Virus record (IMG/VR): IMGVR_UViG_3300007760_000117
Span: 1-20,610 of that record
Reading direction: 5' to 3' (one strand)
DNA from: a virus
Length of the DNA: 20,610 bases
Made by a program: the position numbers and the translations under genes. Every line of letters starts with the position of its first letter. Positions within the stretch are counted from its first letter, which is position 1. The notes under the pieces were generated by a model that was not told where the DNA came from, searched no databases, and saw only the letters and a program-made list of their open reading frames with translations. Below, one piece after another: positions 10,150 through 16,402 of this stretch.

Positions 10150-10605
10150 TTAATCCTTTGCGAACCATCGGTTCATAATGTTTGAATTGTAATATTTCCG
10201 TTCCCCATCGGGAAACGTCGATGTCAATACATCTTCCTTGAATTGGTATTCAGTTTCCGTGTACCCCAATTCCGATTTCGTTTTGCAAAATTTTAATATC
10301 TCAAAATCAAACCCCTCTTTCCCTAATGTTTCGATTTCTTGGTTCAGTTCATCACATGAACCAGTGTACTCTTTCCAATCGGACTCTTTCTTGACATGCT
10401 TCCGATTGACTCGGCCCTTGACTTTCTTTCGTCTGGTGAACACCAACTGCTTCTTCCCGATGTATGACCTACCTGTGTCCTTACGTGTAATCCGATATAC
10501 GAACCCGAAATAATTGGTTGGTTGAATTTCCTCATTCATCCGTACCGTTCGGTGGTATACATATTTATCTTCAAGTGTCCAATGCCCTAATTCCATCACA
10601 ACCAT
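10150..10605 (-). CDS. SegE-type GIY-YIG endonuclease-like protein
   Basis: A 151-aa protein. 'FGFVYRITRKDTGRSYIGKKQL' at about residues 33-54 carries the paired V-Y and Y-I-G elements of a GIY-YIG nuclease. 'SDWKEYTGSCDEL' near 75-87, 'YTETEYQFKEDVL' near 115-127, with the Glu expected to bind metal, and 'YYNSNI' near the end fit the SegE-like GIY-YIG family. In T4, seg genes are free-standing homing endonucleases that spread into related phages; many relatives are fixed as conserved genes. The start may be the ATG at 10605 or the one at 10596, which overlaps the upstream stop as TGATG. Neither has a strong ribosome site. Confidence 0.78.
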   Translation of the reverse strand: MVVMELGHWTLEDKYVYHRTVRMNEEIQPTNYFGFVYRITRKDTGRSYIGKKQLVFTRRKKVKGRVNRKHVKKESDWKEYTGSCDELNQEIETLGKEGFDFEILKFCKTKSELGYTETEYQFKEDVLTSTFPDGERKYYNSNIMNRWFAKD

Positions 10606-11639
10606 TTCTTGAAATATTTATTGAAATCTTCCTTACTCCAATTATTTGCTTCAATTTCCTCACTGGACATATGTCGTCCGATTTCTGCTCCGATTTCCGA
10701 TGGGGTGTACATTTCTCCATCATAATAGACGTTCTGAATCTCAAAGTTGTCCATTATATGCTCATTGTAATCATATGTCTTATCTTCCGTACCCAATATA
10801 AAGAAATCCAGAATATTGTCGGTAAAGTACTTCTCTGCCATGTCAAATAGTTCTCTGGTCATACGAAATAGGGCCATTTTTGCTTTCTTGACCAACTGAT
10901 GATTAGATCCGTGTACTGTTTCAATCTTATCAACTATACCCTTCTCTTTGAGAGATTCATCGGGATCAAAACCTTTAACTATAAACCCCTGACCACCAAC
11001 CCAAAACAGTTTTGCGTGATCCAGATTTTTACTGGCATGAGACAAATAATCTGGATACGATGATCCTTGCTCTGGGGCAAATGCAAGATAGACATCAATC
11101 AATTCAGAACTATTGCTCTTTATAAACTTAGATGCATGGTCAATGATAGTCCTTCTCCATATCACATCCCAATTATGTAAAAAGTTTCCATCACCCGTTC
11201 TACGCATGAATTCCCTAGCAAACTGGTGTAGGTCAATCCATCTCCGACCCTGACTATCTGGTGAACTGAATATATCAAAATCTCCTTGAAATAGAACATC
11301 ACCCTTAACCTCAACCAATATTCCACCAGCAGTCTCCACTCCCTCTAGCATCAAAATTCCTGATCGAACATCTTTGATTTTAGTTGTGACTGATAGAGAT
11401 TTGGCACTATTCTGCAAATCAAACAATGTGGATATACCATCAATATCGGTAACGTGAAACCCTTCACTTTCCTTTGCTACATTCTGCATCCTATCAAGCA
11501 TCGGTTTGGATAAGGGAAATGGCAATGTGAACTGCCTTGACATCCAGTACTCGTATGGTTTTGCTCTAGTACCCAACCATGCCTTGATTTGTGGTGTTGC
11601 CCTTCTGCGTTCCAAGATGAACTGTTTGAATTTTAGCAT
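10596..11639 (-). CDS. tandem paralog 1 with capsid-targeting-like N-terminus
   Basis: A 347-aa protein. The N-terminus MLKFKQFILE resembles the T4 capsid-targeting peptide MKTYQEFIAE and ends in I-L-E, a fit to the (I/L)-x-E cleavage rule of the T4 prohead protease. The conserved domain follows: PLSKPM at 42-47, FHVTDIDGI at 61-69, SLSVTT at 81-86, a Gly-rich AGGILVEVKG near 104-113, and SQGRRWIDL at 129-137. The same blocks occur in the 336- and 554-aa neighbours. The C-terminal half differs and is unrecognised. Candidate internal capsid protein; the activity of the shared domain is unknown. Confidence 0.75.
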   Translation of the reverse strand: MLKFKQFILERRRATPQIKAWLGTRAKPYEYWMSRQFTLPFPLSKPMLDRMQNVAKESEGFHVTDIDGISTLFDLQNSAKSLSVTTKIKDVRSGILMLEGVETAGGILVEVKGDVLFQGDFDIFSSPDSQGRRWIDLHQFAREFMRRTGDGNFLHNWDVIWRRTIIDHASKFIKSNSSELIDVYLAFAPEQGSSYPDYLSHASKNLDHAKLFWVGGQGFIVKGFDPDESLKEKGIVDKIETVHGSNHQLVKKAKMALFRMTRELFDMAEKYFTDNILDFFILGTEDKTYDYNEHIMDNFEIQNVYYDGEMYTPSEIGAEIGRHMSSEEIEANNWSKEDFNKYFKKWL

Positions 11640-11641
11640 AT

Positions 11642-12652
11642 CTATACCTTGTATTTCGTTGGGAAATTCTTACCCATCTTTGCATTGAGAACTATTCTAC
11701 CGTTTAGGTTTTTGATCTGTTGCATTTCATCACGCAAGAATCCACCTTTATCACCCATTTTCACAATTGGGCCCTTATAACCAGACTTTTTTAGACTAGA
11801 AATCAAATCTTTTGCATCATAATCCAAGTGCGAAACTGATTTGCTATACACCTTTGATGGATGATAGATAACCTTTAGGATTTTGATTTCTGATAAAACC
11901 AATTCATCCCATTCCGTTTGATCTCCAGATCGTTTTCCCATCGTGAGCATTTTTTGTATCTGTTCTAGGTGTTTCTTGTTTTTGAGAATTTCCTCGATAC
12001 CATCCATATACCACTTGATTGCCCCTGCCTTTTCCTTTCCTGTACCATAATCTGATATTTCTGTCCAACTCTGAATATTATCACTTCTCCAATATTCTTC
12101 TGGTGTATCATAATCTGGTACTGTGACCCCATAATGCTTCTGTAACTCAGGATTCTGATTCTGTGCTTGAATTATCTGTTCATGCCCCTTCTGACGCATT
12201 TGTTGAATGTCATTCACAAAATCCATCCAACCTTCAAACACCTCACTGTGCCAATGTCTCTGGTACAATTGACCTGTTCTCAACCACCTACGTCCTTGAG
12301 TATCTCTAACAGTGGCAAAATCCTCTCCCATTTCCATCACAACTGTACCTTTTAGAACACAATAGACACCACCTTCGGTCAAAATTCCACCACCCTTGAT
12401 AAAACTATCTTCCGCACCCCTCATATCGGTCATGGTAGAGATTTGGTTCTTTTTACCTTGCATCCTAGCAAGTCCAACCACATCTTCCTGATCGGTGATA
12501 TGCATCCCATAACCTTCACGTTTAGCATTGGTTATTCGTTCCCACATGGGTTGTGAAAATGGGATTGGATACTCGTACTGGTCATCAGTGAAAATCAACT
12601 CTTTGATTTCAGTGGCAGTACCTTCTGTGATGAATTGTCTAAAGGTTTTCAC
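11642..12652 (-). CDS. tandem paralog 2 with capsid-targeting-like N-terminus, GTG start
   Basis: A 336-aa protein that starts with GTG, overlapping the upstream stop as GTGA. The N-terminus MKTFRQFITE is the closest of the three to the T4 capsid-targeting peptide and ends in I-T-E. Shared blocks: PFSQPM at 31-36, GMHITDQEDV at 49-58, QISTMT at 70-75, ILTEGGVYCVLKG at 90-102, TQGRRWLR at 118-125. The middle is Gln-rich and helical, and the C-terminus (YKGPIVKMGDKGG) is unlike the siblings. Likely virion-internal if the targeting peptide is real. Divergence from its neighbours shows the duplication is old. Confidence 0.75.
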   Translation of the reverse strand: MKTFRQFITEGTATEIKELIFTDDQYEYPIPFSQPMWERITNAKREGYGMHITDQEDVVGLARMQGKKNQISTMTDMRGAEDSFIKGGGILTEGGVYCVLKGTVVMEMGEDFATVRDTQGRRWLRTGQLYQRHWHSEVFEGWMDFVNDIQQMRQKGHEQIIQAQNQNPELQKHYGVTVPDYDTPEEYWRSDNIQSWTEISDYGTGKEKAGAIKWYMDGIEEILKNKKHLEQIQKMLTMGKRSGDQTEWDELVLSEIKILKVIYHPSKVYSKSVSHLDYDAKDLISSLKKSGYKGPIVKMGDKGGFLRDEMQQIKNLNGRIVLNAKMGKNFPTKYKV

Positions 12653-13104
12653 TTTCTGAATCTCCGCATCACGATCTCAGATAGAGCAATACCAGACACA
12701 AATGGGATTTTTGCTTTTTTGATTTCTTCTAAATCCTCATCTGACATGCCTTTGATTAGTTTAGTCAATTTCTGCATGGTTGGTGATGTTGGGTCTACTC
12801 TGTCGATCTTACCGAATTCTTTCTTCAGATTTTTGATCTGTTCTGGTGTAAACCCTTCTCGTTGGTATCCCTGATGTTTTTTCTGAAGTCTGCGTTCCCG
12901 ATTAGGATCGAAATCCCTGTCCAAATAGATGTCGGTTTTTCTATCGTAGTACAACCCTGCTTTCGGATCATAATACAATATCATACCGATCTCATGGAAA
13001 TAAAATGGGCCCTCCATATCAGGCATCGGTGGATATTCCTTCGGATCTATTAGATTTTTACCAAGTACCTTGTACCCGTCTACAAGTTCCCTATAAGTTT
13101 TCAT
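12649..13104 (-). CDS. protein with OCRE-like aromatic octamers
   Basis: A 151-aa protein. MKTYREL at the N-terminus also recalls the T4 capsid-targeting start but lacks an I-x-E motif. Residues 43-66 form three octamers, LYYDPKAG, LYYDRKTD and IYLDRDFD, the pattern of the OCRE (octamer repeat) motif known mostly from eukaryotic RNA-splicing proteins. The rest is charged helix (KNLKKEFGKIDRV) ending MRRFRK. It lies between two paralogs, with a TAATG junction upstream and a GTGA junction downstream, so it belongs to the same operon and probably the same structure. Function unknown. Confidence 0.72.
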   Translation of the reverse strand: MKTYRELVDGYKVLGKNLIDPKEYPPMPDMEGPFYFHEIGMILYYDPKAGLYYDRKTDIYLDRDFDPNRERRLQKKHQGYQREGFTPEQIKNLKKEFGKIDRVDPTSPTMQKLTKLIKGMSDEDLEEIKKAKIPFVSGIALSEIVMRRFRK

Positions 13105-14768
13105 TAGATTCCCCTTTTTGACTGCAACCAGACTGATGGTTTGTAATCAGGATCTTCATATTCAATAAACCTATCAGTTGCCTTTCCTAAAATTTCTTCC
13201 ATATTCTGTGTTGTGAACATTCCCAATGCAATAGCAATTCCATAGGCAAACAATCTATGACTTCCACCATCCTTTGATCCCAAAAGATTATATTTGGTAT
13301 TTTTCTCTGCTGTAAACATCCACTCAACGAATGCCTTTTTGGTTGCATTTGTAGGTCTGAAAATACTTGTCGAGACTCCCTTATCAATACCTATAAGTTG
13401 ATACTGAAATGGATTGATGTATTCATCCATTTCATAATACCCACTGTAATCTTTATAAAGTGGGTCTGCTGATGTTTCCTCAATTGCCTCGATGCCGAAA
13501 ATTTGTTCCAGATTAACATTCTCTTTCCAAGTTGGTATCATCACTTCTCCACCCAAACTTATCATTAATAGTTCTGGATGGTCTAAATCTGCATCAACAT
13601 ACTTTATTTTCTCTGCAAGATCTTCACCAGCTGGAATTCTTTCTGATGGAGGTACTGCACTATTAACTAATTGATCTACCGTACCATTTTGTACTGACTT
13701 AAAGTACTCTTGGGCCCGCAGTTCTATCACCAAATTTTCATAATGCTTATCCTTTGGTCTTTCGGCAGTTTTTGAATACATTGCATCAACAGGTATACCA
13801 GCAGAATTTCCCATCAATTCTATTTCCACAGATCCCATCCACTTTGTTGCACCAATCAAAACCACCTCGAATTCGTTCATCGAGATTTCATTCCACGAAC
13901 CATATTCATCTTCATCAGTTTGCATCATCATTTTCTGAATTTCATCCAGAAATCCCTTCTTCATTATCTTCTCCGCACCATCATACCACTGACGAACTAT
14001 CCACCCTTTGGTTTTCTTGTCTGGTACTAATTCTGGACGTTCAACTCCACCAAATTCAAATGGTTTGCCTACTTGCATTTTCAATTCAGCTGCTAATTCA
14101 TGAGTCATTGGTATACCACGTTTGGTGTTAAGAAGTACCCATTCCTCATCAATATATGAACCCTGATAATTTCCAAGTTTCAATTCCCCTGCTTTCTCTG
14201 ATGCAAGGTTATCGTCCTTATAGATGTGGGCAAAATTTCTCATGTATAGATCTTTGGGGAATTTCTTAACGGCACTGAGCATTATCTCACGTTTCAATTC
14301 ATGAAATAGTTCGTGCAACTTTTCTACAACTTGGAAAAAGTGCCTTTGTGATGTTGATCGTTTTGCTTGTGTTAATAGATTAGAAATACGAATCCATCTC
14401 CGACCCTGATTGTCTTGCAATGACCAAAAATCACTACCCGATTCAAGAACTGGATACCCGTGAACGATTGTCCAAACCCCACCAGTAGTGGCAATACCAC
14501 CTTTAAGCAAGTCTTTCATCACACCTCTTGGTGTTGTCATGACCGAAATTTGTCTGGCCGAATTTTGGATTCGTATTAAGTCGTCTATCCTATCGGCATT
14601 GGTGATGTGGATACCATATTTTTCAGTTGATTCTCCCTGTAATCGAACCATCATCTTTTTGGATAGTGGGATATGTGAATGTTCGTTGAACACCAACCAA
14701 TTAACTTCTTCTACCGCTTCAATCAATAGTGGTTGTTCTTCAGTGATGAATTTTTTAAATCTCAACAT
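13104..14768 (-). CDS. tandem paralog 3, long form, capsid-targeting-like N-terminus
   Basis: A 554-aa protein. The N-terminus MLRFKKFITE ends in I-T-E and is followed by LLIE at 14-17, a second possible (I/L)-x-E site. Shared blocks: HIPLSKKMM at 32-40, GIHITNADRI at 52-61, QISVMT at 73-78, IATTGGVWTIVHG at 92-104, NQGRRWIRI at 120-128. About 200 extra residues at the C-terminus carry no motif I recognise. AAGGA lies eight bases before the ATG, and the start overlaps the 65-aa gene by 14 bases. Candidate internal or injected virion protein, in the manner of T4 Alt or the internal proteins. Confidence 0.77.
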   Translation of the reverse strand: MLRFKKFITEEQPLLIEAVEEVNWLVFNEHSHIPLSKKMMVRLQGESTEKYGIHITNADRIDDLIRIQNSARQISVMTTPRGVMKDLLKGGIATTGGVWTIVHGYPVLESGSDFWSLQDNQGRRWIRISNLLTQAKRSTSQRHFFQVVEKLHELFHELKREIMLSAVKKFPKDLYMRNFAHIYKDDNLASEKAGELKLGNYQGSYIDEEWVLLNTKRGIPMTHELAAELKMQVGKPFEFGGVERPELVPDKKTKGWIVRQWYDGAEKIMKKGFLDEIQKMMMQTDEDEYGSWNEISMNEFEVVLIGATKWMGSVEIELMGNSAGIPVDAMYSKTAERPKDKHYENLVIELRAQEYFKSVQNGTVDQLVNSAVPPSERIPAGEDLAEKIKYVDADLDHPELLMISLGGEVMIPTWKENVNLEQIFGIEAIEETSADPLYKDYSGYYEMDEYINPFQYQLIGIDKGVSTSIFRPTNATKKAFVEWMFTAEKNTKYNLLGSKDGGSHRLFAYGIAIALGMFTTQNMEEILGKATDRFIEYEDPDYKPSVWLQSKRGI

Positions 14769-15001: not shown

Positions 15002-15868
15002 CTATAAGTCCATGTGTGTAACTTGGTATTCCTCTGCACTTGCCGAAACTTCGACCTTATCTGCTTCCTTTTCTTCGATGAACAAATGTCGCAATGACTT
15101 GCGTTGTTTGTCCTTTCTGCGTTGTACTGCATCTGCATAGGTATCGTTTTCGTCATACAAGAATTGCAATTCCTGATGTGAGAAAAACTCATACAAACGA
15201 CTTGGATGCGTACCAAACCCCATCCACGTCATAACGTCTATGCCAAACCCCAATTGGATATTGGTGATTCGTGAACATAACCCTAACAGACCACCATTAG
15301 CATGAAACACTCCACCACCCGAATTTCCAAAAATAGATGGTGCGTTGTACATGATATACGATTTCTGCTCGATGATTTCACGCAAATAGGTTAGTTCACC
15401 CTTATTTGAAAATGGATCGTGTAGCAAACTGCAACCACTAGTCCAAACTTCGTCAAATAATTTCATATCTGCAATTTCGTTCTTGGGATAGATGGAAGCA
15501 ACCCAATCTTGTGGTTTGGTATTGGTAAGTCTCAGGGCCGCAAGATCATGATTTTTGTCATAGGCAATAATCTCTGCCTGTGTGCTATTTGCCGATGATA
15601 TTTTTGAACCATCATAATCAAAAACCTCAACCGAGACTTCTTCCATGATGTCCTTTTTGATTTCTCGTTTCAGCAGTGAATCCCATTCGTCCTTGACCGA
15701 GATTGCACCATCAATGACGTGCTGACATGTCAAAACTATATTAATAAATTTCCCTGCATTATTAGGATCTTCTTTGCTGTACACCAGCACACCAGATCCC
15801 CCTGCTTTCCCTGCCTTGACTCTAGTGACAGGATACAAAACCTTTTCGTGTAATTCTTGTTGATTCAT
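15002..15868 (-). CDS. trypsin-like serine protease
   Basis: A 288-aa protein with a chymotrypsin/trypsin-type triad: H50 in VLTCQHVI, D108 in NHDLAAL, and S183 in GNSGGGVF. The order H-D-S, the spacing and GNSGG match the S1/S1C proteases (DegP-like core). No PDZ domain and no signal peptide are visible, so it probably works in the cytoplasm or in the virion. The start at 15868 is supported by GGAG nine bases upstream and by an ATGA overlap with the 54-aa membrane ORF; a longer start at 15937 has neither. It sits just before the targeting-peptide proteins, so processing of virion proteins is possible. It is not the T4 gp21 prohead-protease type. Confidence 0.85.
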   Translation of the reverse strand: MNQQELHEKVLYPVTRVKAGKAGGSGVLVYSKEDPNNAGKFINIVLTCQHVIDGAISVKDEWDSLLKREIKKDIMEEVSVEVFDYDGSKISSANSTQAEIIAYDKNHDLAALRLTNTKPQDWVASIYPKNEIADMKLFDEVWTSGCSLLHDPFSNKGELTYLREIIEQKSYIMYNAPSIFGNSGGGVFHANGGLLGLCSRITNIQLGFGIDVMTWMGFGTHPSRLYEFFSHQELQFLYDENDTYADAVQRRKDKQRKSLRHLFIEEKEADKVEVSASAEEYQVTHMDL

Positions 15869-16029
15869 AGCATAATTCTCCATACAAACAATAGTGTAAT
15901 CCAAAATAATAATAATGTGATTGACAATGCCAACCAATACCTAACCCACAAATACAGCAGATAATGTTTCAATCCAACTGATTTCAATAGAACGAATCTG
16001 TCCTTATATTTATTTATAACCCACTTCAT
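15865..16029 (-). CDS. small membrane protein, 54 aa
   Basis: The ORF reads MKWVINKYKDRFVLL..., with a basic N-terminus and one long Leu/Trp/Phe-rich hydrophobic segment (about residues 23-50) that could span the membrane once or form a tight hairpin. Its ATG overlaps the 21-aa ORF stop (ATGA), and its TGA overlaps the protease ATG (ATGA). Both junctions argue that it is a real gene. A late-promoter-like sequence lies within codons 4-7. Function unknown; a lysis or membrane-anchoring role would be a guess. Confidence 0.62.
   Translation of the reverse strand: MKWVINKYKDRFVLLKSVGLKHYLLYLWVRYWLALSITLLLFWITLLFVWRIML
16011..16018 (-). promoter_or_regulatory. possible T4-type late promoter (TATAAATA)
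   Basis: The minus strand reads TATAAATA, the T4 late promoter consensus recognised by gp55-RNA polymerase. It is about 140 bases upstream of the protease ATG and inside the start of the 54-aa membrane ORF. It could be a coding coincidence. Confidence 0.4.
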
Positions 16030-16091
16030 TTCCCTGCCAATATAATTAGGGTAAAAAGTACAATTATAACAACCAACTCAAAGTCAGTCAT
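16026..16091 (-). CDS. micro-ORF, 21-aa membrane peptide
   Basis: MTDFELVVIIVLFTLIILAGK is a short polar start followed by one hydrophobic segment. The ATG overlaps the IscA-like stop as ATGA, and its own stop overlaps the next ATG as ATGA. The unbroken overlap chain is the main evidence that it is translated. Without that, a 21-codon ORF would not be reported. Confidence 0.45.
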   Translation of the reverse strand: MTDFELVVIIVLFTLIILAGK

Positions 16092-16402
16092 ACACTGAAA
16101 CTTTCACCGCATCCACAGGTTGAATTTGCGTTGGGATTTCCGATGCGAAATCCATTACCCATCAACCCATCCTCATAGTCAATCTCAGACCCCGCCAAAT
16201 ACAAAATAGATCTCTTATCACAAATAAGGTGAAATTCCTCATCAACCCACATCACCACATCCTTTTCATCATAATTGTCAAAGGAAAGGTTGTACTGGAA
16301 ACCAGAACAACCACCCCCTTCTACCTTAACCCTAAGACCTAATGTATTATCATCCATCATACCAATGCATTTCTGCATGGCAAATGGTGTTATTGTTAGC
16401 AT
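16088..16402 (-). CDS. A-type iron-sulfur cluster carrier (IscA/ErpA-like)
   Basis: A 104-aa protein, the usual length of the family. C32 in GGGCSGFQY and C96/C98 in STCGCGESF are the three cysteines that bind an Fe-S cluster or iron in IscA, ErpA and SufA proteins. Residues GNGFRIGNPNA before the second pair also match the family. It is expected to receive Fe-S clusters and pass them to client enzymes in the cytoplasm, which here would be host or phage Fe-S proteins. The ATG overlaps the preceding stop (TAATG). A glutaredoxin gene lies about 600 bases upstream in the same direction. ErpA versus IscA cannot be told apart. Confidence 0.92.
   Translation of the reverse strand: MLTITPFAMQKCIGMMDDNTLGLRVKVEGGGCSGFQYNLSFDNYDEKDVVMWVDEEFHLICDKRSILYLAGSEIDYEDGLMGNGFRIGNPNANSTCGCGESFSV

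Follow-up and report, generated by a model that had tools for sequence, protein, structure and literature searches.

Candidate injected proteins with a T4-type leader form a multi-copy family in marine T4-like phages

A leader-bearing protein family encoded in tandem

A 20,610-base virus record from IMG/VR (IMGVR_UViG_3300007760_000117, whose whole length is the window referred to below) carries three paralogous genes whose products, of 554, 336 and 347 amino acids (aa), begin with a ten-residue leader that is, by sequence, equivalent to the T4 leader. We consider the members of this family to be, quite probably, effectors that are packaged in the capsid, trimmed by a protease and injected, and that are probably similar to ADP-ribosyltransferases (ARTs). 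The capsid-targeting half of this explanation, which draws on the leader, is very likely to be correct. The ART half, which draws on predicted structures, is a closer call that we lean towards. New here are the family, its signature, and one leader marking a candidate injected set that agrees with published proteomes.

The three genes lie on the minus strand between positions 10596 and 14768, where four open reading frames (ORFs) encode proteins of 554, 151, 336 and 347 aa. The initial annotation of this DNA had described tandem paralogs with common sequence blocks. Sequence comparison places the paralogy of the 554-, 336- and 347-aa proteins far above chance, with BLASTP values of 3e-25 (554 versus 336 aa), 5e-20 (554 versus 347 aa) and 2e-18 (336 versus 347 aa) for alignments that cover the first ~145 residues. 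The motif QGRRW was found at the residues stated there (121-125, 119-123 and 130-134, respectively), as were three leaders ending in I-x-E. The tandem arrangement holds insofar as the genes are clustered on one strand, but the 151-aa ORF separates the first from the second. This ORF is not a paralog of its neighbors, its start resembles a degenerate T4 leader, and no relatives of it were found among the fetched contigs. Homology within the family extends beyond residue 140 into a second conserved half (IKDYxDGxEKIxKK ... WDExVVNNIKIKK across the wider family), which is present in degenerate form in the window proteins. The features are as follows, with leader scores taken from a weight matrix trained solely on family leaders.

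13104..14768, minus strand: member 1, 554 aa, with leader, ART-like core and an additional C-terminal part of ~230 aa; ortholog at L013:20422-21531 (support 0.994)
14739..14768, minus strand: member 1 leader, MLRFKKFITE, matrix score 17.3; cut predicted after E10
14358..14678, minus strand: member 1 conserved core, residues 31-137 (IPLSKKM...HIT...ISVMT...GGI...QGRRW)
12649..13104, minus strand: 151-aa ORF between members 1 and 2, starting MKTYRELVDG, without I-x-E; membership in the set uncertain
11642..12652, minus strand: member 2, 336 aa, GTG start, AlphaFold2 model with a predicted local distance difference test score (pLDDT) of 84; orthologs at L005:2363-3418 and L006:9977-11008 (support 1.0)
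12623..12652, minus strand: member 2 leader, MKTFRQFITE, matrix score 23.1; residues 1-8 have pLDDT <50
11864..12568, minus strand: member 2 ART-like core, residues 29-263, with H51-x-T53, S72, G89, D111, G120-R121-R122-W123 and W248-D249-E250
10596..11639, minus strand: member 3, 347 aa, recognized by ORF and paralogy; ortholog at L012:52-1092 (86% identical, support 1.0)
11610..11639, minus strand: member 3 leader, MLKFKQFILE, matrix score 16.6
11205..11522, minus strand: member 3 conserved core, residues 40-145

The leader is conserved and modular

Among 134 family members, the leader retains F4, [YF]7, [LI]8 and E10, the last in 121 of the 127 aligned sequences. Conservation of E10 is not circular, because the pattern used for trimming starts left out positions 8 and 10. 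Beyond the leader, a linker of variable length and sequence extends up to W/S-x-S and F21, the next well-kept position. The information content is ~3.3 bits per position in the leader versus ~1 afterwards, although positions 1, 2, 4, 7, 8 and 10 were also used for selection. Thus, the sharp drop in conservation after residue 10 that the initial annotation had proposed to look for is seen across the 134 homologs.

The leader is also found on proteins other than family members. On the same contigs, 128 more ORFs carry it, in ~29 mutually unrelated clusters, a count that rests on a regular expression and whose one-off clusters may include a few chance matches. The clusters include zeta-kinase-like, RimK-like, methyltransferase-like, 5′-nucleotidase-like, cytidylyltransferase-like and polyA-polymerase/tRNA-nucleotidyltransferase-like proteins, as well as DUF6267.

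Leader genes can occur in runs. One such run (L008:4572-13928) surrounds a single family member and holds a polyA-polymerase/tRNA-nucleotidyltransferase-like protein, a cytidylyltransferase-like protein (GRFQPFHPGH) and three uncharacterized leader-bearing proteins of 300-718 aa. In the cultured relatives Melnitz (MZ577097:12203-19789) and HTVC008M (103767-111718), a cluster directly after gp41 includes proteins whose starts resemble the leader and end in [LI]-x-E (MQGFKTFLSE, NFSKYITE, MYNDLLVE), DUF6267 among them.

Leader-bearing proteins in T4 and cyanophage virions

When the matrix was applied to 74 T4 genes, covering 55-105 kb of the genome, the three best-scoring genes were ipIII, ipII and ipI. 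The internal head proteins of T4 carry such a capsid-targeting sequence, which is removed by gp21 (PMC5694885). For S-CREM2, a test with the matrix replaced one with a loose motif, the pattern of which had been loosely chosen. The top three of 219 S-CREM2 genes encode an APH-like kinase, a cytidylyltransferase and an S-adenosylmethionine (SAM) hydrolase (gp14, gp154 and gp6), all of which have been found in CsCl-purified virions (PMC10665884 Table 3). The authors of that study suggest that the enzymes are possibly encapsulated, and do not mention a leader (PMC10665884). S-CREM2 gp13 starts with MKDLHSFLTE. In the virion-detected Cas9 of this phage (OR473000:7704-10313, minus strand), PLRFASFMAE occupies residues 16-25 and is followed by A, rather than standing at residue 1. 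The S-SM1 cytidylyltransferase T4-GC190 starts with MKKFSAFLNE and was likewise detected in the virion (PMC3037559).

One 134.5-kb contig carries two family genes together with gp23 and a homolog of the T4 prohead protease gp21 (E = 1.2e-36). Its gp23 has VFMTE/AAHA (slash, putative cut) at the place where the T4-like gp23 cut is expected, and its gp21 contains FICE. Putative sites in Melnitz are FLSE/AAP and YITE/A, and in HTVC008M FLGE/IA. These putative gp23 and gp21 sites share the ending [FY]-[LIM]-x-E with the leaders. The T4-like capsid-targeting leader proposed at the outset is therefore supported by the ranking of ipI-ipIII, by the S-CREM2 virion enzymes, by the unrelated leader-bearing clusters and by the F-M-x-E site on the contig that encodes gp21 and gp23.

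The T4 proteins Ip1, Ip2 and Ip3, which are otherwise unrelated, resemble the family in carrying an N-terminal ten-residue leader (MKTYQEFIAE in ipII and ipIII, MKTFKEFTST in ipI). No homology to them was seen beyond the leader, however, and they are ~100-200 aa long, whereas family members have ~300-550 aa and are paralogous to each other. The virion enzymes of S-CREM2 and S-SM1 (SAM hydrolase, kinase, Cas9, cytidylyltransferase) share the leader, but their bodies are unrelated to the family.

Predicted fold and relation to ADP-ribosyltransferases

The initial annotation had compared the H-(V/I)-T and S-x-x-T blocks with ART folds and called for structure prediction and a fold search. Confident AlphaFold models were obtained for the 336-aa protein (predicted template modeling score, pTM, 0.83) and for one relative (pLDDT 90, pTM 0.85), and ART-superfamily enzymes are among the best VIA-align matches, with modest Z scores of 4.7-5.8. 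For the 336-aa model, the best match is Tpt1 (Z 5.8, root-mean-square deviation (rmsd) 4.3, 97 residues aligned), and the matches that follow it include DarT (Z 4.7, rmsd 4.4, 115 aligned). In the relative, three of the four highest-scoring matches are CteC (5.1), DarT1 (5.0) and DarTG (4.8), and TreTu and Tpt1 score lower. Such recurrence of several separate ART families in two models is more than we would expect by chance. Many matches to RNA polymerase beta were rejected, as they align the helical insertion alone, a common helical arrangement.

The alignment to Thermus DarT begins with model residue 45 at chain residue 7; if it is ungapped, H51 falls on DarT His13 (YHITHIDN). H51 is present in all 134 members and E250 in 133 of 133 aligned, within predicted strands 46-53 and 248-263. 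A histidine in the first core strand and a glutamate in a late strand would fit the ART superfamily and suggest a catalytic role for both. Essentially invariant in the 134 members are H51, G89, D111, G120, R121, R122 and E250; invariance of these residues other than G89 argues for an enzyme.

In DarT and Tpt1 (KptA), as in the family, the first core strand carries H-x-T (HIT in DarT, HGT in Tpt1) and a helix comes next; DarT also has a late Glu. In contrast to DarT, Tpt1 and CteC, the family has a helical insertion of ~100 residues and the D111 and GRRW motifs, and no profile homology to DarT or KptA was detected. The proposed logic is that of T4 Alt, an ART of the R-S-E class: family members would be capsid-packaged, trimmed by the prohead protease, injected and ART-like. 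The family differs from Alt in having no ART Pfam match and in its invariant H-x-T strand. Searches with ART Pfam models and PHROGs gave no match that would place it in the T4 Alt family. Packaging of ARTs in the head has been suggested to be a strategy used more widely by phages (PMC9503650).

A 143-aa leader-bearing ORF on another contig (L075:342-770) contains FYRGIG...GLYLT...A, which by eye resembles the classical R-S-E type ART motif; it has no Pfam match.

Proposed function and alternative explanations

In the explanation we favor, the products of the three genes are cargo proteins in a T4-like marine phage. The first ten residues would act as a capsid-targeting sequence that carries each protein into the prohead core, and a gp21-type prohead protease would cut after Glu10. 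The trimmed protein would remain with the packaged DNA and enter the host cell at infection. Its body would be a previously undescribed domain, probably an ART-like enzyme, with an invariant H-x-T strand, a late invariant Glu and a helical insertion that interrupts it. Like T4 Alt, it might modify a host or defence target upon DNA entry, and the divergent copies retained side by side probably act on different targets. We infer packaging, cleavage and injection, as well as the NAD chemistry and the targets.

Several observations weigh against this explanation. Among 193 S-CREM2 proteins not classed as structural, the leader score gives no overall separation of virion from non-virion proteins (P = 0.10) and is informative in the top ranks only; the overall ranking is not significant, since a leader is absent from many virion proteins. 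Published proteomes show virion presence for other leader-bearing proteins only, and, to our knowledge, neither a virion proteome of a family-bearing phage nor a cleaved N-terminus has been reported. A few members have altered leaders, such as MKTLLEFS and MINFNEVYYKSVQKE, and no head genes lie in the window, which is a fragment. As to the enzyme, Foldseek searches of the PDB and of viral models returned no match at E ≤ 0.001, all ART Z scores are below 8 and may reflect a common arrangement, and in hhalign comparisons with DarT and KptA the probability stayed below 1%, a level that shuffled columns also reached. Known ARTs offer no role to match the invariant GRRW and Asp111. Thus, the ART comparison stands at the level of structural resemblance, with no significant Foldseek or profile match, and ART identity is plausible, if unproven.

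It is also possible, though less likely, that the proteins are packaged and injected as something other than ARTs, either as enzymes of another kind or as inhibitors that act by binding on a restriction or defence system. T4 Ip1, Ip2 and Ip3, which have only the leader in common, each block a specific GmrSD enzyme (PMC12373910), and target-specific inhibitors would fit divergent tandem copies; nor was a sequence link to any ART found. However, H, D, GRR and E are almost completely invariant in 134 very divergent sequences, a pattern that points to catalysis more than to an interface, and ARTs are the best structural matches of both models.

Much less probable is a structural or morphogenetic head component (a scaffold, core or ejection-channel protein) that carries the leader incidentally. 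In T4, gp21 also cuts core proteins, namely gp22, gp67 and gp68 (PMC5694885), but family copy number differs between contigs, PHROG head or tail families give no match, and the domain has a compact, enzyme-like predicted fold with invariant polar residues. Equally improbable is that the leader is another kind of N-terminal tag (a translation or degradation signal, or other localisation), as might suit enzymes with a possible role late in infection (methyltransferase, RimK, tRNA nucleotidyltransferase-like), given that the matrix retrieves ipI-ipIII and virion-detected S-CREM2 enzymes and that the aromatic-aliphatic-x-E ending is that of putative gp23 and gp21 sites in related phages.

If packaging and injection of ART-like effectors is correct, the ten-residue tag lets one read from sequence which proteins abundant ocean phages inject, and many “hypothetical proteins” become testable injected effectors. 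One rule would then account for the SAM hydrolase, kinase, cytidylyltransferase and Cas9 in published cyanophage virions, and the family would supply new candidate enzymes that act during the first minutes of an infection. More tentatively, marine T4-like phages might inject a large arsenal in which one ten-residue leader labels dozens of unrelated enzymes (kinases, a RimK-like ligase, a methyltransferase, NMNAT-like and tRNA-nucleotidyltransferase-like enzymes, SAM hydrolase and Cas9), and of which the multi-copy, hitherto undescribed ART-like family with a new active-site signature (H-x-T / D / GRRW / WDE) could be a major part.

Distribution of the family

Relatives are encoded in at least 199 IMG/VR stretches. 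We collected 153 family ORFs in 84 loci, often with 2-4 per contig and frequently adjacent. Each window copy has its own orthologs elsewhere. For the 336- and 347-aa copies, orthologs are 55-86% identical, versus 30-40% between paralogs; on these values, the paralogs are old, stable lineages maintained in parallel.

Searches of Pfam, PHROG and PDB sequences yielded no matching family, and matches to Pfam Peptidase_C78, OCRE and EF-hand were rejected as below cut-off, partial in coverage and absent from homologs. By these comparisons, the family lies outside every described family that could be tested. Queries with the window proteins and one relative (tblastn) detected no relative in 50,697 phage records, and full-length profiles gave no family match in Melnitz or HTVC008M. 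The family looks phage-borne, because a scan of bacterial genomes gave just one relative (L111:1250-1522). It lies on a contig of 3.5 kb in a Saprospiraceae metagenome-assembled genome and is possibly viral contamination.

Other features of the window

No Rfam elements or tRNAs were found in the window. Its T4-like genes include an RNase H with the T4 C-terminal domain and a 722-aa peptidase of phrog_459. Immediately upstream of the family genes (15002-15937, minus strand) lies a trypsin-like peptidase (PF13365, E = 2e-12) without a leader. On the same strand, at 16088-16402, this phage DNA contains a 104-aa ORF that by eye resembles an A-type iron-sulfur carrier (IscA/HesB), ending in CGCGESFSV.

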